A DNA stretch of 25,072 nt. Origin: a virus. The translations under genes were made by a program, and so were the position numbers. The DNA is taken from positions 1-25,072 of the IMG/VR virus record IMGVR_UViG_3300044798_000102; one strand, written 5' to 3'. Within the stretch, counting starts at the first letter, position 1, and the number at the start of each line of letters is the position of its first letter. The notes under the pieces were generated by a model. It worked only from the letters and a program-made list of their open reading frames with translations. It did not search any database and was not told the DNA's origin. Positions 8,230 to 21,847 of this stretch are shown here, in pieces.

Positions 8230-9862
8230 TGCATACCTCCAGTTGTGCATTGACGGCCCCCAGAATGTCAGAGGCAAGCGACGCAGATGAGTTCTGCGCC
8301 CGTTCCGCATACCAGACCTCAAGAGCGTGCATCGGGTCAACGAACTCATCCTGCGCCCGGCTCACGACAGAGAGCAGTACAGCCTCTTCGGACTCGGCGT
8401 AACGCCTTGCCTGGACTTGCGCGAAGGCTTCTCCAACCAGCCTGTCCGCATCCTTGCCATCACCCATTGCGCGAATGTGTGCAAGCAGGGGTGCTGCAAG
8501 CCGCTCTGTTACCACTTTACAGAGTGATGTGGCACAGTATTCGCGCAACCATTGGGTGAAACCAGCAACACCTGATGAATCAAGGGCTTTCTTCCCCTCG
8601 GTCAGGACGTCGTGCTGCTCGCGTTTTCGAATACCCGCCATGACATCTCCGACGACCGGAAGCAACAGGCTCCGGATTGCTGGGGGGACGGTCATGTTCA
8701 GGGGCTCCAAATACCGGTCACCCTGGCTTCCAATAGCATTCATATTCTCCATATTTCTGATGTCGTTGACTGACAGGTAACCCCACTGGCGTCCAAGAGC
8801 GTAGGAAGCATGACGCGAAGCAGTATCGCCCCTCAGAAGACCATCCAGGACAAACTCAGCGAAGTAGGTCTGCCGATCGGGCTCAGGAAACAGGGCCACG
8901 AGCTGCTGCTCAATGTTCACCAACCACGGCCGGACGGTATAAGTGACGTACTGGATGGCAAGGTTCTCGATGTTGGAGAACGTGCTATGGTCCAGATCTC
9001 CTACGAGGTGCGGGGGGACCCGGAAGATGGAGGCGATTTCTTCGCGTGAGAACTTCCTGGTCTCAAGAAACTGGGCATTGTCTGGGTTGATCCCAATGGT
9101 TGCGATGTCTGCGCCACCTTCGAGGACAGCGGTGCGATGCGCATTGCTTAATCCTGCGTGCGTCGCGTCCCAAGTCGCGGCGATTTCCTTGGCCCTGTCA
9201 GTCCCGAGTGTTCCTTGAAATTTGAGCGCCACACTCGGATTCGCATTGTGAGCGAAGAACTGCTCTCCATACTGCTGAGCTGCCATAGCAAGACCAAGCG
9301 TCTCACGTGCCTTGTCGATGGGCGAGTACCCGACAATCCCATCGAAAGAGAGGCCATGCAAATGAAGAATTCGGTAATCGGGCAACTTTGCGGTGGTTCC
9401 ATCGGGCAGTGTGTAGATGTATGTCAAACTCAGGTCCGCATTCTGCCAGATCTGCATCTTGTCAGGACGGAGCAGCCACAAAGCGGCGGTGCGCCCGGCA
9501 CCATCCAGCTGGATCTCAGAATAGGAATTGCCCCAACCCAACAGATGGCTCGCAGCTGCCTGTCTCCAGGCAAACGACGTCATGCGCGAGTTGACCTTGT
9601 CATGCAAGAGTGGATACAGCGGATGATCCGACGCCCGGTCCTTGCCATCCTTGGTTCTCCGATAGACGTTCAAAGGAAGCGATGCAATGGTCGACGCCAA
9701 CAGATCAATACAGGAGTACACCGTCGTCAAGGTGAGGGCCGTACTCTCCGTCACCGTCACGCCGGAGATGGCATTCTGACCGCCCAGCATCCGGATCAGT
9801 ACCGGATCGTTCGAGGTCAGCAGCCACTCTGTCGCCCTCTTGAGTCGTGTCCAGAAGTTCAT
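8222..9862 (-). CDS. Portal protein, HK97 family
   Basis: The start is taken as the ATG at 9862 (MNFWTRLKRATEWLL), eight bases after GGAGG and just past the terminase stop at 9867. The open frame continues further upstream but without a ribosome site. The 546-residue protein has the HK97-portal signature: TVYSCIDLLASTIASLPLNV near residue 50, HDKVNSRMTSFAWRQ, and FSREEIASIFRVPPHLVGDL followed by STFSNIENLAIQYVTYTVRP. It forms the dodecameric channel through which DNA is packaged and ejected. The C-terminal 150 residues beyond the core are helical and acidic. Overlap with the protease gene suggests coupled translation. Confidence 0.95.
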   Translation of the reverse strand: MNFWTRLKRATEWLLTSNDPVLIRMLGGQNAISGVTVTESTALTLTTVYSCIDLLASTIASLPLNVYRRTKDGKDRASDHPLYPLLHDKVNSRMTSFAWRQAAASHLLGWGNSYSEIQLDGAGRTAALWLLRPDKMQIWQNADLSLTYIYTLPDGTTAKLPDYRILHLHGLSFDGIVGYSPIDKARETLGLAMAAQQYGEQFFAHNANPSVALKFQGTLGTDRAKEIAATWDATHAGLSNAHRTAVLEGGADIATIGINPDNAQFLETRKFSREEIASIFRVPPHLVGDLDHSTFSNIENLAIQYVTYTVRPWLVNIEQQLVALFPEPDRQTYFAEFVLDGLLRGDTASRHASYALGRQWGYLSVNDIRNMENMNAIGSQGDRYLEPLNMTVPPAIRSLLLPVVGDVMAGIRKREQHDVLTEGKKALDSSGVAGFTQWLREYCATSLCKVVTERLAAPLLAHIRAMGDGKDADRLVGEAFAQVQARRYAESEEAVLLSVVSRAQDEFVDPMHALEVWYAERAQNSSASLASDILGAVNAQLEVCNG

Positions 9863-13046: not shown

Positions 13047-13610
13047 CTAGGAGTGCATTCCTGCATTAGCAAGCCCTTGGAGGGACTTCTTGCCAAGCAA
13101 TCGGTGACGTCCAGGATGATGTTTCACGTACAGGCCCTTGGCAGAGATGGCCAGTAGAAACGAGTCATAGGTCCCAACATAGTTCCCGCCAACCCGTACC
13201 CGGTAACGATCATTCCCAGTGCGCCAGATGCTCGGCGTCCCTGTCGGAATGCGCACACACACGTGCGGATAGCGTTTCTCTGCTTCCTCGGGCAAGATGA
13301 TCCGTTCTATGATTCGTTCTGGCTTCCCGTGCGTCCAGTGCCCAACGTTGAGAAACGTCACATGCTTCCCGTTTCTGAGCCCACCATCAGCAATCTCGTA
13401 CAAAAGGTCGAAACGGCGGCTCAGACCGAAAACAATCGCACCGACGAACTCACTATGCTCTTCCTTGCGCAACTGTCTGCGGAGAGCACGCACAACATTC
13501 CGCGCATTGCCTCCCTGACAGAGCAGCGCTGTAATCCTGCCGCCTCTTTCAAGCGTCTTGAACCCACGTACGTGCAAAGGACTCTGAGACCATCCGTGCC
13601 ATCCGGTCAT
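13047..13610 (-). CDS. Unknown protein with possible AP2-like C-terminal segment
   Basis: The 187-residue basic protein starts MTGWHGWSQSPLHVRGFKTL after GGAGG five bases from the ATG. The central part around QGGNARNVVRALRRQLRKEE is a basic helix. Residues about 128-160, WRTGNDRYRVRVGGNYVGTY then DSFLLAISA, follow the strand-strand-strand-helix pattern of AP2-type DNA-binding domains in which a G-x-Y/F-D-S segment precedes a helix. Such domains are common in phage HNH proteins, but no HNH core is present here. The assignment is weak. A 107-base gap separates it from the large Cys-rich gene upstream, and an imperfect inverted repeat overlaps its stop codon. Confidence 0.6.
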   Translation of the reverse strand: MTGWHGWSQSPLHVRGFKTLERGGRITALLCQGGNARNVVRALRRQLRKEEHSEFVGAIVFGLSRRFDLLYEIADGGLRNGKHVTFLNVGHWTHGKPERIIERIILPEEAEKRYPHVCVRIPTGTPSIWRTGNDRYRVRVGGNYVGTYDSFLLAISAKGLYVKHHPGRHRLLGKKSLQGLANAGMHS

Positions 13611-13717: not shown

Positions 13718-15940
13718 TTAAGCTTTCCTATATCCTTCGCAATCGACCGCCCTTTGATGACGAGCTCCCTTGGCCTTGCATCTACTGCAGGGGTTGAGGG
13801 TGTTGTCCAGGCGGCAGTCCTTTTGATGCAGACACGTCTCACAAAGGCAATGCTCACACTCGGGTTCGTCACCATAGGACTCGGCGCGGTGTCCTGGCAG
13901 ATACTTCGCGGTCGACGTGTCCACAAACCGCGCATAGCCAAGATGTGGCCACTCATTACGGGGATCCTCGAGATATCCCTGGGCGTCCTTGTGCCCCTTC
14001 GACCCCGCGGGTTTCAACCAGACGTGCGTGAACCACGTCGGACCAGCCGCATTCTCTGCTTCCTCAGTGGCGCAAAGTTGTTCGACCTGTTCTTCGGTGA
14101 GGACGATGACTCGGTCGTCGGCGAACTTCTCGCCATAGACACTGTCGTAGTGATTTTTCTCGACGGCATTATCTACTTGAACGACCACCTTGCCGCCTTC
14201 GGCCCTCCAACCGGCAACGCCCCAATCAACGAGTAGCTCATCCTTGCTGGTCAGCCTGCGCCGCGGGTGCCGGAAGTCGTCCCACAGATCACCGTAGATC
14301 TGCCAGCCGGCGTCCGTTCTCTCCACGCGTGTCACCTTGCGAATGTCGTACACAAAGCCTCTTGTGTGCAGCCGGGTCACCAGGTCGCCTACCTTGACCA
14401 GGTCTGGAACGTCCAGTTCGGCAGCCAGCAGCATCACTGCCTCGATCGCGGCCACATCTTTCTTCGCATACCATCGACAAGCATACTGCCCCGTCTCCAT
14501 CGGGTAGCCGGGGACACCGCACGTGCTATCGCAATCGGGCGTTCCATGCTTGCACGAATGGCAGAGACAGGGGCCGCCTTCGCCGTTGTACATTAGTTGA
14601 CAGGCAATCTCGGGGCAGGGTCCCATGCCAGGGGCCAGGATGTCCGCGGGGAAGGTTGCAGCGTCGCGCCAGTGAGGACACTTCTTGACGATCGCAGCGT
14701 AGACCTTCCAGTGATGCGGATGATTCAGCCAGCATGTAGAACAGATGAGGACTGGTTCATCGCCATTGAGCGCACAGTTCAGGTTGCGGTAGCCACAGGT
14801 CTGGCACTGACAGGCAGTGCATGAGCCGTCTGCGCATTCGGTTGGCCGGACGTACCGCTGAACCGTGTCGACGTGCAACTGTTCCCGCAGCAGCTGGCTC
14901 TCGGTGTTGCCCATGACTTCGGCAGTGAGAGCAGCCTTGCGTCCGCAGAGCGTTGTCGGCTGGAGCTCGGGCTTCCCCAGGCACTGGTCACAGCCGCAGG
15001 GAGGGCAATCCTTCCACGTCTTGTCCGTATAGTCCAGATGTGCCTGGTTCAGACCGCAGGTCTCACAGTCGCAGTGCGAACAGATGTCGGCGTTGCTTCC
15101 GGGGAGAGCGTTGCCATTATAGACCGTACTCGTGAGCTTCGGTTGCTTCTTCGCCTTGGCTGGCTTCGTGGGCTCGACAGGCGCAACAGGCGCCTTCTGT
15201 CGATACCGCATGAGCAGCTTCCACTGTTCGAAGGGTTCATAGACTCCAATATCGTTGCGCTCGTTCTGCTTGGCAACAGCAGCGAGAGTCCAGGGGGTGT
15301 TGTTGATGCGCCAAAAGAACTCTTCCGTTGACTCACCCAAGTCGTAACGGTACCCGTCGTCAGAGCCTTGGATAAGTCCCTTGTTGTATACCTGGGCGAG
15401 GAGCTCCTTCGGGAACAACGGCGCGATCTCTTTGGCCGTAGGCATGCTGACTCTCTGCAGGTACATGATGAGTCTGTCCTCTGCCAGCTTGTCGAACTTG
15501 TCGCTAGCCGGCCAGTAGCCGACACAGCGCTCGACGGCACAGGGAGGTTCCTGCCGACAGTGGGGTTTGCACATGCAGCCATAGAGCGGACACGTCCCGC
15601 CGTGATACTCGCCACAGTTCCGGCAGTCACACGCCCAGGGAGATTCGAGCTTTGGGGCGGGCTGAGTGAGAGGCACGAAGTTGTCATCACAGATCACGCT
15701 ATCCACCATCACCACATTGTCGACGATCGTGATATCGTGTGACAGCGCTTTCGCATACCTGACCGAACACTTGAATCTGTCTTGGTCCCAATGCTCACAT
15801 ACAAAGCCGACTCGTTCCTTGCAGCCCGGCACGCATACAAAGCGATGATCTACTCCACCGTCAGATTCATGTGGTTTCGGCGCAATCGGCTCAGGAAACA
15901 GGCTGCCTGCCCATCCGGACACTTCGGGTCCGCGTCTCAT
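13718..15940 (-). CDS. Large protein with five repeated Cys clusters
   Basis: This is the longest gene in the window, 740 residues with about 49 Cys. Cys clusters lie at about residues 104-128, 287-320, 374-403, 458-474 and 695-721. The core pattern is (C-x2-)C-x-C-x2-C, a spacer of 5-16 residues and Cys, often closed by C-x2-C: for example CSHCDCETC at 287 and CEHCLCETC at 695. A further Cys pair group is at 36-58. Between clusters are ordinary segments: residues 150-245 could hold a winged-helix-like unit (TAKEIAPLFPKELLAQVYNK), and 505-620 is a mixed alpha/beta region. The clusters suggest structural zinc or metal-cluster binding and possibly nucleic-acid contact. No enzyme motif, signal peptide or membrane segment is visible. 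The ATG overlaps the preceding stop as ATGA. I do not recognise the family. Confidence 0.85.
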   Translation of the reverse strand: MRRGPEVSGWAGSLFPEPIAPKPHESDGGVDHRFVCVPGCKERVGFVCEHWDQDRFKCSVRYAKALSHDITIVDNVVMVDSVICDDNFVPLTQPAPKLESPWACDCRNCGEYHGGTCPLYGCMCKPHCRQEPPCAVERCVGYWPASDKFDKLAEDRLIMYLQRVSMPTAKEIAPLFPKELLAQVYNKGLIQGSDDGYRYDLGESTEEFFWRINNTPWTLAAVAKQNERNDIGVYEPFEQWKLLMRYRQKAPVAPVEPTKPAKAKKQPKLTSTVYNGNALPGSNADICSHCDCETCGLNQAHLDYTDKTWKDCPPCGCDQCLGKPELQPTTLCGRKAALTAEVMGNTESQLLREQLHVDTVQRYVRPTECADGSCTACQCQTCGYRNLNCALNGDEPVLICSTCWLNHPHHWKVYAAIVKKCPHWRDAATFPADILAPGMGPCPEIACQLMYNGEGGPCLCHSCKHGTPDCDSTCGVPGYPMETGQYACRWYAKKDVAAIEAVMLLAAELDVPDLVKVGDLVTRLHTRGFVYDIRKVTRVERTDAGWQIYGDLWDDFRHPRRRLTSKDELLVDWGVAGWRAEGGKVVVQVDNAVEKNHYDSVYGEKFADDRVIVLTEEQVEQLCATEEAENAAGPTWFTHVWLKPAGSKGHKDAQGYLEDPRNEWPHLGYARFVDTSTAKYLPGHRAESYGDEPECEHCLCETCLHQKDCRLDNTLNPCSRCKAKGARHQRAVDCEGYRKA

Positions 15941-16140
15941 TCCACTACTTCCAGCATACCAAGGCAGCGGCTGAGGCGGCTTGCCTTAACGGTGAATTGG
16001 TCGCCGTACTTGTCTGTCAGCTCGACCCATTGTTGCACCCCATTGCCGACGACGAGCCCCTTGAAGATACGGCCGTCAAGAAGAACCAGCTGGACCTTGT
16101 TGCCTGGGCATAGCGTTTTGATGACACCGTTGTTCGTCAT
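15937..16140 (-). CDS. Small Sm/SH3-like barrel protein
   Basis: The ATG at 16140 overlaps the stop of the 3D-domain gene, and the stop overlaps the start of the large Cys-rich gene, so all three are probably co-translated. The 67-residue product has the sequence pattern GNKVQLVLLDGRIFKGLVVG followed by WVELTDKYGDQFTVKASRL. A strand, D-G-R-x-F-x-G turn and second strand recall Sm/LSm or other small beta-barrel folds used to bind RNA or proteins. The resemblance is short and the function unknown. The same frame is open upstream to 16338 but that part overlaps the 3D gene and has no ribosome site. Confidence 0.65.
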   Translation of the reverse strand: MTNNGVIKTLCPGNKVQLVLLDGRIFKGLVVGNGVQQWVELTDKYGDQFTVKASRLSRCLGMLEVVE

Positions 16141-17837: not shown

Positions 17838-18119
17838 CTAGGTGATGATCGGCAGGATACCCCCTGCTTCGACTTTCTGAACGACAGGTTCACTGTCTAT
17901 GATCGGTTCAGGTTCAACGCTCACAATGTTTCCTTTGCGTACCAGGGACGGATCGAACACGACCCTGTCAGCCCACATAGCCTTCTGACCCTTATTCCAT
18001 TGGGAAACAGGCCTCAGATAGCCAACCACACGGCTGTAGACCTCAGTCCTGGTACGTTTCTCAGCGGGGATGATGACGCCGTTGTCCAGCTGGAGATCAC
18101 CGTTCGGCAGTTCAACCAT
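17838..18119 (-). CDS. Stand-alone NrdD-type glycyl-radical mini-protein
   Basis: The protein has 93 residues. Residues 27-45 read VYSRVVGYLRPVSQWNKGQ, which closely resembles the C-terminal glycyl-radical segment of anaerobic (class III) ribonucleotide reductase, where the Gly in R-V-x-G-Y carries the radical and is followed by a W-N-x-G-K region. Here Gly33 would be that residue. The catalytic barrel of NrdD is absent and no such gene is in the window. Small free glycyl-radical domains are known to repair cut host enzymes (GrcA/YfiD for pyruvate formate-lyase). The N-terminus MVELPNGDLQLDNGVIIP and the C-terminus are not recognised. It overlaps the HNH gene by 8 bases. About 78 bases without a gene follow its stop. 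Confidence 0.65.
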   Translation of the reverse strand: MVELPNGDLQLDNGVIIPAEKRTRTEVYSRVVGYLRPVSQWNKGQKAMWADRVVFDPSLVRKGNIVSVEPEPIIDSEPVVQKVEAGGILPIIT

Positions 18120-18771
18120 TGGGTGCTACCTCGCAGATCATGTCAAGCCCCTTCCATTCTCGCGGAGTTCTCTTGTTCTTGCTGGCGTTACAATGTCGGC
18201 AAGCTGGAACGATGTTTGCTTTGGTATGCTTGCCGCCCTTAGATAGAGGGATGACGTGATCCTGCTCTGGAACCTCCCATCTTGTCCCATCGAGTCGCAA
18301 CTTGTGTCCACAGTAGGCACAACGGTAATCAAACCGCTGGAGAATGTCTTTCCACTCGCCAAGTGTCAGCATTTCGTCAATCGGCGTATTAACTACCTTC
18401 AGGGCTCGATATTCACGTACTCGAAACCGACACAACATCCTATGTCCGAGGCGCCAATGTCTATTGGTCTCCACAATCCTCTCTCTATGCAATTCTGTCC
18501 AAGCAATCCGGATTTCGGGGTGTTCCTTTCGATAGGTGGAATTGTAGGATGCCATCTTGGTTCTCCGTTCTTCGCTTTCCCAGTACAGAGCTGAACGCCT
18601 CGCAGAAATCTCTTCACGATTATCCGACCGCCATTTCTTCACGTGCTCCAAGATTTGCTCTCGATGTTCCCCGTAGTACGCGACGCAGCGTTGGGCGTTT
18701 GCTTCTTTGTTCTCTTCGTAGTATTCCTGGTTGTACTGACGTTTGTGCTCTTTCCGTTCTTCGTCAGTCAT
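18112..18771 (-). CDS. HNH endonuclease with charged helical N-terminus
   Basis: The C-terminal third of this 219-residue protein is a complete HNH domain: CAYCGHKLRL, then EQDHVIPLSKGGKH, and NIVPACRHCNASKNKRTP, with the two CxxC pairs binding zinc. The first 110 residues are highly charged and helical with many Glu, Arg and Tyr (for example HKRQYNQEYYEENKEANAQR), a common leader of phage HNH proteins. It is probably a free-standing homing-type nuclease that moves with the accessory block. Its start overlaps the stop of the BRO gene as ATGA and its end overlaps the glycyl-radical gene. Confidence 0.85.
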   Translation of the reverse strand: MTDEERKEHKRQYNQEYYEENKEANAQRCVAYYGEHREQILEHVKKWRSDNREEISARRSALYWESEERRTKMASYNSTYRKEHPEIRIAWTELHRERIVETNRHWRLGHRMLCRFRVREYRALKVVNTPIDEMLTLGEWKDILQRFDYRCAYCGHKLRLDGTRWEVPEQDHVIPLSKGGKHTKANIVPACRHCNASKNKRTPREWKGLDMICEVAPNG

Positions 18772-19499
18772 GTTAGCAAAGCCTCTCCGATGATGTCAAA
18801 CACCTTCCTCATCCAGAACGTCTGGTAGACACAACGGCGATTCTCCAGTTGAATAGGCATCGTCTTGGCGTACTGCTTTCCTCGCTCATTTGGGATCCAC
18901 TCTCCCCCAACCCTGAACTGGAGGCCGCAGATTTGTAGACGGATATTGACCTCAATTCCAGAAAGCCGGGGGTTGAACATGCGTCCAATTTGGGTCGGTG
19001 TGATAAATTCCTCGCTCGCGTTGGACGGTACTGGCAGGGCAGGGATCCCCTGGGCGATCTTGTCGACGCGCTGACTTACTTGGTCAACTTTGGCATTGGC
19101 CGCGGCAATCTGCTGGTCCTGACGCTCCAGGTCATCAACAAGTCCCCTGAGAATCCCGTAGACGTTCTTCGAGCTCGGCAGGTAGGACCCGGTCTTGCGG
19201 ATCTGCGGAAGGACCGTACCGGTGACCCACAGCCGAAAGGCCTTCGCCTGGAACTTGTGGCTTCTGATGATCAGGGCATAGATTCCTGATTCACTGATGA
19301 CAGTCATAGACTGTTCGCCACCAAGGGTCAGAACTTGGGCCTTATCCCTTTCGGACGCATCAAGACCTTCGACTGCCTTGCTTGTATCTTTCAGATCCAG
19401 AATGCTACAAACGTCCTGTGCCACGAACCATGGATCTCCATCTTTTGTTACCGTTCGAATCTCATGAGCGTTATACTGCCATACTTGCAATTCCTCCAT
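18768..19499 (-). CDS. BRO-N domain protein (antirepressor-like), copy 1
   Basis: The 243-residue protein has a BRO-N domain at residues 1-105: DPWFVAQDVCSILDLKD, TLGGEQSMTVISESGIYALI, then FRLWVTGTVLPQIRKTGSY. Such domains bind DNA and are common in phage antirepressors and late regulators. A short coiled region (about 117-150) links to a C-terminal domain starting SEEFITPTQIGRMFNPRLSG that resembles other antirepressor C-termini but is not the KilAC type found in copy 2. GGAGG lies six bases before the ATG. The gene follows the replication protein by 38 bases, which suggests control of replication or of the switch to late genes. Confidence 0.85.
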   Translation of the reverse strand: MEELQVWQYNAHEIRTVTKDGDPWFVAQDVCSILDLKDTSKAVEGLDASERDKAQVLTLGGEQSMTVISESGIYALIIRSHKFQAKAFRLWVTGTVLPQIRKTGSYLPSSKNVYGILRGLVDDLERQDQQIAAANAKVDQVSQRVDKIAQGIPALPVPSNASEEFITPTQIGRMFNPRLSGIEVNIRLQICGLQFRVGGEWIPNERGKQYAKTMPIQLENRRCVYQTFWMRKVFDIIGEALLT

Positions 19500-20278: not shown

Positions 20279-20460
20279 GCCCCAGTCTTCAAATGCAAAC
20301 CCTCGCGACGCAGACTAGGGAGAGAGGTCACGAGGGCAACCGTTACCATACCAGTCTTCCTCGAGATTGTCAACTCTTTCGCCTTCATGCCAGTAAGACG
20401 GCCTACCTGCATGCTGGCACGCTGACAAGCCGCTGTACTGTCATGCCGATACAGCGTCAT
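20275..20460 (-). CDS. Possible 61-aa protein (low support)
   Basis: The ATG at 20460 overlaps the DUF5131 stop as ATGA, as in the neighbouring gene chain, and the frame runs to a stop within the -35 box of P2. The product includes MKAKELTISRKTGMVTVALV, which faintly recalls AbrB/MazE-type DNA-binding strands, then SLPSLRREGLHLKTGA. There is no good ribosome site, and a promoter-like sequence lies inside the frame. It may be real, a decayed gene, or chance. Apart from this frame, 20084-20456 holds promoters and leader structure. Confidence 0.35.
   Translation of the reverse strand: MTLYRHDSTAACQRASMQVGRLTGMKAKELTISRKTGMVTVALVTSLPSLRREGLHLKTGA
20345..20373 (-). promoter_or_regulatory. Sigma70-type promoter-like site P1
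   Basis: On the minus strand TTGACA (20373-20368), a 17-base spacer, and TATGGT (20350-20345) preceded by TGG. It points to the replication gene about 95 bases upstream of P2. It lies within the weak 61-codon frame, so either the frame is not a gene or the promoter is internal. Confidence 0.5.
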
Positions 20461-21320
20461 GCCGTCATTGTCCTCGGATATTCCTGGATCGTCTTGCCAT
20501 CAGGCCAGAAGTGTGCCAGATTCTTCTTCTGAAATAGGGGTATACCATGCTCTAATGCACGGCTACTAAGGTCATAGACCCAATCGGCTTGCGGTTGCCG
20601 ATTCTTTGCACCCGGCCCTGTCATGGCCCCGATCACCAGCCAGTCAATCATCTGGTCTGCCATGTCGAAGCGCGAGGCGATGTCTTCCAAGAGCGGTTCA
20701 GCTGATGCCCACGTGTGCCAGCCGCGAGAATGTGCCAACATCATGGCCGCGCCCGTTGGGTCATCGACGGTCATCGAAAACGTGTGGTCTAGGGTGTCGC
20801 ATGTCGTCCCGAGCCACCAATTCAAGTGCGCGGTCTTCTCACGGAAGACTGTCTCATATCTGCCGGCGTTCTTCGTGAGGAACAGGTACTGATGCTGCGG
20901 GTTCATCTCGCACGTTGCCAGGACGGAGTAGATCCAGTCATCCGGCACCCAGTCTCCGAACAGGTCTGCCATCGAACAGACGAACACCCGCGAGGGCTTC
21001 TTGACCCACGACGGTTCAGGCAAACGGTACTCATGGAACGTCGGCTCGAAGTTGAATGGATACAAACTGCGGTTTTCTCGGGAACCCAGTATCATCGGCC
21101 GGCCGTGTTGATCTTCAAAGGTCAGATCAACAAACTCTTCTTCAACATTAAACCGAATATAGTGCAGATGCGGCCTGTCGGGATATGTGGTGTCAAAGTA
21201 ATAGGTGTCGGCACCGAAGCGAGTAGCAATCCTGCGGGCATAGCAGTAAGAACAGCCATGCTGACAGCCCGTTATGGGGTTGAAAGAATACTCGGCATAA
21301 TCGATCGTCGTCTTCTTCAT
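20457..21320 (-). CDS. DUF5131 (Gp37/Gp68) radical-SAM-like protein
   Basis: The ATG at 21320 overlaps the HNH stop as ATGA and has a GGA-type ribosome site; earlier starts fall inside the HNH gene. The 287-residue protein begins MKKTTIDYAEYSFNPITGCQ and has Cys19, Cys23 and Cys26 (C-x3-C-x2-C, in GCQHGCSYCYARR), the signature that holds a 4Fe-4S cluster in radical SAM enzymes. The middle segment PSRVFVCSMADLFGDWVPDD and the later LVIGAMTGPGAKNRQPQADW are standard for this phage/plasmid family. Its reaction is not established. Placement in the accessory block next to a homing endonuclease suggests a modification or defence-related role (inference). Confidence 0.85.
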   Translation of the reverse strand: MKKTTIDYAEYSFNPITGCQHGCSYCYARRIATRFGADTYYFDTTYPDRPHLHYIRFNVEEEFVDLTFEDQHGRPMILGSRENRSLYPFNFEPTFHEYRLPEPSWVKKPSRVFVCSMADLFGDWVPDDWIYSVLATCEMNPQHQYLFLTKNAGRYETVFREKTAHLNWWLGTTCDTLDHTFSMTVDDPTGAAMMLAHSRGWHTWASAEPLLEDIASRFDMADQMIDWLVIGAMTGPGAKNRQPQADWVYDLSSRALEHGIPLFQKKNLAHFWPDGKTIQEYPRTMTA

Positions 21321-21847
21321 CTCAATCCTTCCTTGACGCAACCCCATTTGATGCCTAGGGCAGCACGTCTGATGGCAGTATGTGATACGCCGAACTGCTG
21401 TCCTAGCGCCCGCAGCGTCTTCGTACCATGAAGTTGTCGGATTGCCAGAACGTCTTCTCTTGTGAGTTTGTGCGTACCAGATTTCTCACCGTCGGACATT
21501 CCTCCGTTTATCCGCTTGTCATTCATGTTCTCAAGGCGTGTTCCCCACTCGAGATTGCGGATGTCGTTGTCCTTTGGGTTGTCGTTAAGGTGCCGGGCTT
21601 CTTGGCCGTTTGTAGGCAATCCCTTCCAAGCAGACAGCACAGCTCTGTGGACATACATCTTGTGTTCCTCTCTGTCAACGGACATGAACACGTAGAGGTG
21701 TCCGTCCTGACCAACAATGGGCTTCATGATGTGGCGATTGCGCCTTCTGAGCGAGACGATCTGCCCGTCCCGAGAAGCGTAGTAGCCTTCGTATCCGGGG
21801 ACTGCGTTCCATGTCTTGTCGGCCCAGTCGATTGAGGTGCGATTCAT
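21317..21847 (-). CDS. NUMOD4-HNH homing endonuclease with DUF5131-like N-terminus
   Basis: The 176-residue protein has a NUMOD4 region (about residues 13-45, WNAVPGYEGYYASRDGQIVS), an HNH core around residues 65-110 (YVHRAVLSAWKG, then ARHLNDNPKDNDIRNLEWGT), and a C-terminal helix-turn-helix (LTREDVLAIRQLHGTKTLRA and VSHTAIRRA). This order is typical of phage SPO1-type homing endonucleases. Unusually, the first 14 residues, MNRTSIDWADKTWN, match the N-terminus of DUF5131 proteins (compare KTTIDYAEYSFN at the start of the next gene). It looks like a nuclease that took over or fused to the start of a DUF5131 gene. ATGA overlaps on both sides. Confidence 0.9.
   Translation of the reverse strand: MNRTSIDWADKTWNAVPGYEGYYASRDGQIVSLRRRNRHIMKPIVGQDGHLYVFMSVDREEHKMYVHRAVLSAWKGLPTNGQEARHLNDNPKDNDIRNLEWGTRLENMNDKRINGGMSDGEKSGTHKLTREDVLAIRQLHGTKTLRALGQQFGVSHTAIRRAALGIKWGCVKEGLR

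Follow-up and report, generated by a model that had tools for sequence, protein, structure and literature searches.

A mosaic family of cysteine-rich phage proteins with a constant N-terminal tag and exchangeable modules

The P0001 protein family, encoded by uncultured phages, is a domain-shuffled mosaic in which a constant N-terminal tag is followed by varying selections of modules at one locus. The same modules recur in other orders and beside other neighbors at homologous loci, and most of them contain Cys, with eight in the commonest. An earlier sequence-only reading of this DNA singled out the Cys clusters of the protein but missed both their exchange as modules and the mosaic make-up of the gene behind its constant front end. 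The family is large and absent from all family libraries searched. Its anatomy of tag, linker seam, and exchangeable modules (Table 1) is clear and testable.

The P0001 gene and its product

The window is the whole 25,072-nt stretch of DNA analyzed (IMG/VR virus record IMGVR_UViG_3300044798_000102), a 25-kb virus record that encodes tape measure, capsid, prohead protease, and terminase proteins. Distant relatives of its TerL (44%) occur in Oscillospirales and other phages, and a scan of the window for RNA families and tRNAs returned none. The P0001 gene sits between the replication and terminase genes.

The ORF translation of P0001 contains 49 Cys in 740 residues, as previously estimated. C-x-C-x2-C cores occur six times (residues 104, 290, 315, 377, 458, and 698), with the cores at 290 and 315 only 25 residues apart; the repetition noted earlier is genuine, but the count is six rather than five. 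Four of the six have the form C-x2-C-x-C-x2-C, which had been described as the prevailing one, and the phrase C-x-H-C-x-C-E-T-C does appear twice, at residues 287 and 695. Shuffled sequences of the same composition (20,000) held a mean of 0.20 cores and a maximum of 4, so that none reached six and chance clustering of Cys is ruled out.

Most shared modules of the family have dN/dS of 0.05–0.3, which reflects purifying selection and identifies P0001 as a real protein-coding gene. This constraint and the occurrence of the gene on independent contigs exclude a non-coding stretch or an artefact. P0001 contains no membrane segment, and no signal segment was found in it.

Table 1. Coordinates of P0001, its modules, and the two genes upstream
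Feature	Position	Residues	Strand	Basis
Modular Cys-rich protein gene (P0001), 740 aa	13718..15940		minus	ORF and translation; relatives from IMG/VR and from one MAG contig
Constant N-terminal tag T, MRRGPEVSGWAGSLFPEPI	15884..15940	1-19	minus	Opens every member with an intact 5' end
Module v	15650..15739	68-97	minus	Also in L040 and L058 beside other modules
Cys module B, 9 Cys	15506..15643	100-145	minus	Common to L002, L003, L006, L007
Module C, no Cys	15191..15505	146-250	minus	Module map; winged-helix-like by eye only
Linker KPAKAKKQPKL, seam at module joints	15134..15166	259-269	minus	Same 24-nt DNA at nine joints, unrelated flanks
Cys module D	14891..15115	276-350	minus	Module map; leave-one-out profile above all 1,000 shuffles
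Cys module E	14627..14863	360-438	minus	Module map; one of 1,000 shuffles above leave-one-out score
Cys module F	14459..14623	440-494	minus	Module map; shared origin with other Cys modules weakly supported
Module G, no Cys	14189..14410	511-584	minus	Module map; barrel-like by eye only
Module H	13907..14113	610-678	minus	Module map; dN/dS about 0.1-0.3
Cys module I, 8 Cys	13730..13870	691-737	minus	Leave-one-out profile; paralogue alignment, 7 invariant Cys columns
Small 67-aa barrel gene	15937..16140		minus	ATGA overlap with both neighbors
3D-domain protein, N-terminal membrane segment	16137..16670		minus	Pfam 3D E 6.5e-10; upstream in relatives

Relatives and database searches

Relatives of P0001 were found on 15 IMG/VR contigs in viral contig scans, whose E-values are relative to candidate stretches only, and on one MAG contig; two of the 15 contigs, L021 and L022, encode the same protein. 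A genome-contig scan with the family alignment gave no relative, and the MAG copy came later from a genome terminase scan. This copy lies beside its terminase on a contig of 4.2 kb from a Lake Pavin sediment MAG that carries a Chloroflexi label, and the Chloroflexi assignment depends on this one contig. Among 400 genomes of the phylum to which that MAG is assigned, the Cys-module profile matched only the same MAG. The sampled relatives are mostly contig fragments from a few related phage groups. Phages with unrelated terminases have the locus in common: L006, L009, L010, and L012 come from phages whose different terminase does not match that of the window.

P0001 has no significant match in Pfam (nothing up to E 5), PHROGs, NCBIfam, PADLOC, or PDB sequences, and whole-protein profile searches of the family libraries with eight relatives were likewise without a significant match. 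Searching each cluster on its own, as had been proposed, yielded nothing significant for 29 single Cys modules against the family libraries and PDB sequences; the best PDB profile matches were retroviral nucleocapsid zinc knuckles at a non-significant E of 0.23. No structural PHROG or Pfam family, regulator family, or toxin or immunity family was matched by the P0001 family, and the PADLOC models of anti-phage defence gave no match up to E 1. Among 50,697 phage and 72,556 plasmid records, none contained a convincing relative, and a search of the published literature found nothing relevant. The earlier view of P0001 as undescribed is supported in that the protein resembles no family in these libraries.

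Module shuffling and the linker seam

The module map over all members comprises about 28 modules, a number that is approximate because module definitions were drawn by eye from alignments, in 13 architectures. Fourteen modules have more than one right-hand neighbor. The window copy reads T-v-B-C-linker-D-E-F-G-H-I, while L010 reads T-n-a-k-r-e-c-g-h-D-E-F and L021 reads T-n-a-k-x1-x2-q-f-h-y-w-x2-z; L035 and L012 read T-f-s-h-g-w-x2-z and T-y-w-x2-z. Module B is missing from L004, L005, L010, L021, and L035. In DNA, the window gene and L004 share 39–47% identity before the linker, 87% across modules D and E, and 91% in module H.

A natural chimera is seen in L058, whose 5' part matches L010, L021, and L040 at 87–89% DNA identity and whose 3' part matches L035 at 84%; the 5' similarity stops at the linker, and the changeover lies around it. 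Module q also recurs in a second protein of the phage that carries L003 (IMGVR_UViG_3300049914_000152, 9163-9291, a 249-aa ORF, 42% identity), which suggests that modules may be recruited from other genes.

The linker, KPAKAKK(Q/P)PK, is found at joints of unrelated modules. At nine non-homologous joints, its 24 nt have a mean identity of 85%, whereas resampling codons for the same peptides from the family's own usage gave 74 ± 1.6% and a maximum of 80% in 5,000 simulations. Because the observed identity exceeds this expectation, the joints most likely share descent at the DNA level. Unrelated proteins often contain the linker peptide, and since the exact DNA string also appears in unrelated viral ORFs, the peptide alone is no proof. 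The linker was rejected as a specific mobile site for the same reason, and the excess identity within the family is what counts.

The constant N-terminal tag

The tag spans about 19 residues with the pattern G-[WY]-x-x-[SE]-LF, mostly followed by x-EPI, and is kept in every member with an intact start, even where all later modules differ. Three successive tagged genes occur in L023 (starts 7177, 7380, and 8375) and two in L040 (starts 3739 and 4001). These tandem genes carry different bodies, which suggests that the tag has a shared docking role. A beta-sliding-clamp-binding peptide was considered for the tag and rejected; the leading-Gln QLxLF-type motif is missing, with no QL[SD]LF or Q[LM]xLF in any family member, and only S-L-F is in common.

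Cysteine modules and proposed metal binding

When 29 copies of the main Cys module are aligned, seven Cys columns are invariant, and the eighth Cys shifts position between subtypes and is mostly kept. Cys is 93% conserved across relatives, followed by Gly at 83%. Many modules hold exactly four or eight Cys, and several hold 5, 7, or 9.

The relatedness of the clusters was assessed with leave-one-out profiles against 1,000 shuffles of the tested sequence. Module D scored 12.8 bits (best shuffle 8.1), module I 17–25 bits (best shuffle 9.4), and "a", an extra cluster in L005, 14.1 (best shuffle 10.9). Module E and the extra cluster x1 scored high, yet in each case one shuffle of the 1,000 scored higher; F and x2 scored weakly, and B was not detected. 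Common ancestry of the repeated clusters is therefore supported for D, I, and "a", is less secure for E and x1, is weak for F and x2, and does not extend to B.

The conserved Cys of the modules show C-x2-C and C-x-C spacing, a general trait of zinc proteins. Zinc sites in the cytoplasm would fit the conserved Cys, the many modules with four or eight of them, and the lack of a membrane segment. AlphaFold models have a confidence too low to judge metal sites or name a fold, with pLDDT of 28 for full-length P0001 and 49 for a single module. A metallothionein-like metal store or redox buffer, to which the many C-x-C and C-x2-C motifs might point, is highly improbable: the family is only 6–12% Cys, has normal aromatics (7–12% F/W/Y/H), conserved non-Cys residues, and Cys-free modules, and reaches about 790 aa, whereas metallothioneins are small and very rich in Cys with few or no aromatics.

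Neighboring genes

The translational coupling reported earlier is present as ATGA overlaps between P0001 and the barrel gene and between the barrel and 3D genes. Cooperation of the three products, which had been suggested on this basis, was not supported by the survey of relatives. The 3D gene is the usual upstream neighbor: it is found in all members with enough upstream sequence and immediately precedes the tagged gene in L005, L023, and L035, but the barrel gene is dispensable, being absent in L005, L021/L022, L023, L035, L040, and L058; a fixed three-gene team is thereby ruled out for the barrel. In L012, a cytosine methyltransferase gene lies between the barrel gene and the tagged gene. 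In L007, an HNH gene lies between the two remaining ends of the 3D gene; in L058, only a C-terminal end is seen, on an HNH ORF. Since the barrel gene is often absent and the 3D gene is curtailed in these two relatives, the trio is unlikely to work as a unit.

The HNH endonuclease ORFs that interrupt the 3D gene (L007:3322-4625 and L058:12707-13225, minus) end in frame with the last residues of the 3D protein, an arrangement that looks like a homing endonuclease insertion.

The gene order also bears on whether P0001 is an extracytoplasmic, disulfide-bonded protein that acts at the cell wall with the membrane-anchored 3D-domain protein. Gene overlap or near-overlap in the window, L005, L023, and L035 is consistent with such a partnership, as are the even Cys numbers of many modules. 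It is nonetheless very unlikely, since P0001 is without a signal or membrane segment, its C-x-C and C-x2-C spacing suits metal better than disulfides, and only ends of the 3D gene are seen in L007, with the C-terminal one alone in L058.

Several other genes of the minus strand lie nearby. An HslV-like phage peptidase (16684-17244; phrog_1040, E 4.3e-23) is encoded just upstream of the 3D gene. A 187-aa protein (13047-13610) is conserved just downstream of P0001 in many relatives at 33–84% identity; its C-terminal stretch is AP2-like by eye, with no Pfam match. A 93-aa protein (17838-18119) contains SRVVGYLRPVSQWNKG and matches only the C-terminal glycyl-radical tail of NrdD (PF13597, E 2.5e-6, profile positions 532-562 of 562). 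By analogy with GrcA/YfiD, which serves pyruvate formate-lyase, it looks like a free-standing glycyl radical domain, and similar ORFs occur in L005 (2958-3293) and L040. A DUF5131 radical-SAM-like phage protein is encoded at 20457-21347 (E 2e-38).

Proposed role of P0001

P0001 is best read, if tentatively, as a cytoplasmic phage effector or adaptor composed of interchangeable metal-binding modules that are exchanged between phages. Each Cys module, typically C-x2-C-x-C-x2-C-x5-C ... C ... C with eight Cys or sometimes four, would fold with one or two Zn(Cys)4 sites at its core, and each module would bind a macromolecule of the host or of a rival element. The tag would dock every version to one shared partner, and exchange of modules at the linker would let phages keep up with changing hosts, as other counter-host proteins do. 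The 13 architectures, the L058 chimera, the seam DNA, the tandem tagged genes, the low dN/dS, and the conserved Cys argue for this role, as do the lack of a membrane segment and the sharing of the locus by phages with unrelated terminases. The low-confidence AlphaFold models lend it no metal-site or fold evidence, and no functional homologue was found. Also against it count the modules with 5, 7, or 9 Cys and the occurrence of the linker peptide and its exact DNA string outside the family. Low dN/dS within modules is not the signature of a residue-level arms race. No direct link of P0001 to host defence emerged, PADLOC having given no match.

The main rival is a nucleic-acid-binding protein that would control late genes or serve packaging, with zinc, winged-helix-like, and barrel-like modules that bind phage DNA or RNA close upstream of the terminase genes. 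The position between replication and terminase genes, the basic linkers that accompany the Cys modules, and the zinc knuckles as best, if non-significant, PDB profile matches are consistent with this role. It is unlikely, however, as the downstream packaging genes stay the same across widely differing architectures, the locus is found in phages with unrelated terminases, no regulator family is matched, and the retroviral-type knuckle motif C-x2-C-x4-H-x4-C (CCHC) does not occur in any member. The large size, the modularity, and the adjoining morphogenesis genes would also suit a virion or injected protein, either a modular decoration of the particle or a protein ejected into the host. With no structural family matched and a gene that lies ahead of the terminase genes rather than among head or tail genes, this is quite unlikely.

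An extension of the effector or adaptor role, which is doubtful at present, is that phages maintain a dedicated locus that draws on a pool of interchangeable zinc modules to build counter-host proteins, with a common docking tag and a DNA linker as the recombination seam. Such a combinatorial cartridge locus, if true, would be a system not described before. Modules directed against hosts would make the locus a ready-made source of small metal-binding inhibitors; nucleic-acid-binding modules would illustrate the diversification of late-region regulators. In both cases, a single phage gene shows in-frame exchange of modules, and its DNA makes the seam visible.

Comparison with known systems

Zinc knuckles and ribbons, such as those of retroviral nucleocapsid and of the Elf1 and PRK11032 types, resemble P0001 modules in being short and built on C-x2-C pairs, with matches at E 0.2 or worse. 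The P0001 module differs in lacking CCHC and in following C-x2-C-x-C-x2-C with more Cys, and no match is significant. Among 3D-domain cell wall proteins, one is the usual upstream neighbor of P0001, which itself has no 3D domain.

BRO/KilA-type viral regulators are domain-shuffled proteins of phages with a conserved N-terminal part and interchangeable C-terminal modules, and a Bro-N gene is present in the window at 18768-19499. The P0001 family has the same plan of a conserved front and swapped modules. Unlike these regulators, it contains no Bro-N, KilA-C, or other Pfam domain (Bro-N, KilA-N, and KilA-C gave no match up to E 5 for P0001 and up to E 1 for eight relatives), its constant part is only about 19 residues, and its modules are mostly Cys-rich.

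Polymorphic-type proteins also join a constant N-terminus to swapped modules. Although the P0001 family differs from them in having no secretion signal, no toxin or immunity match, and purifying selection inside its modules, it resembles them in its constant front end, combinatorial body, and tandem cassettes.
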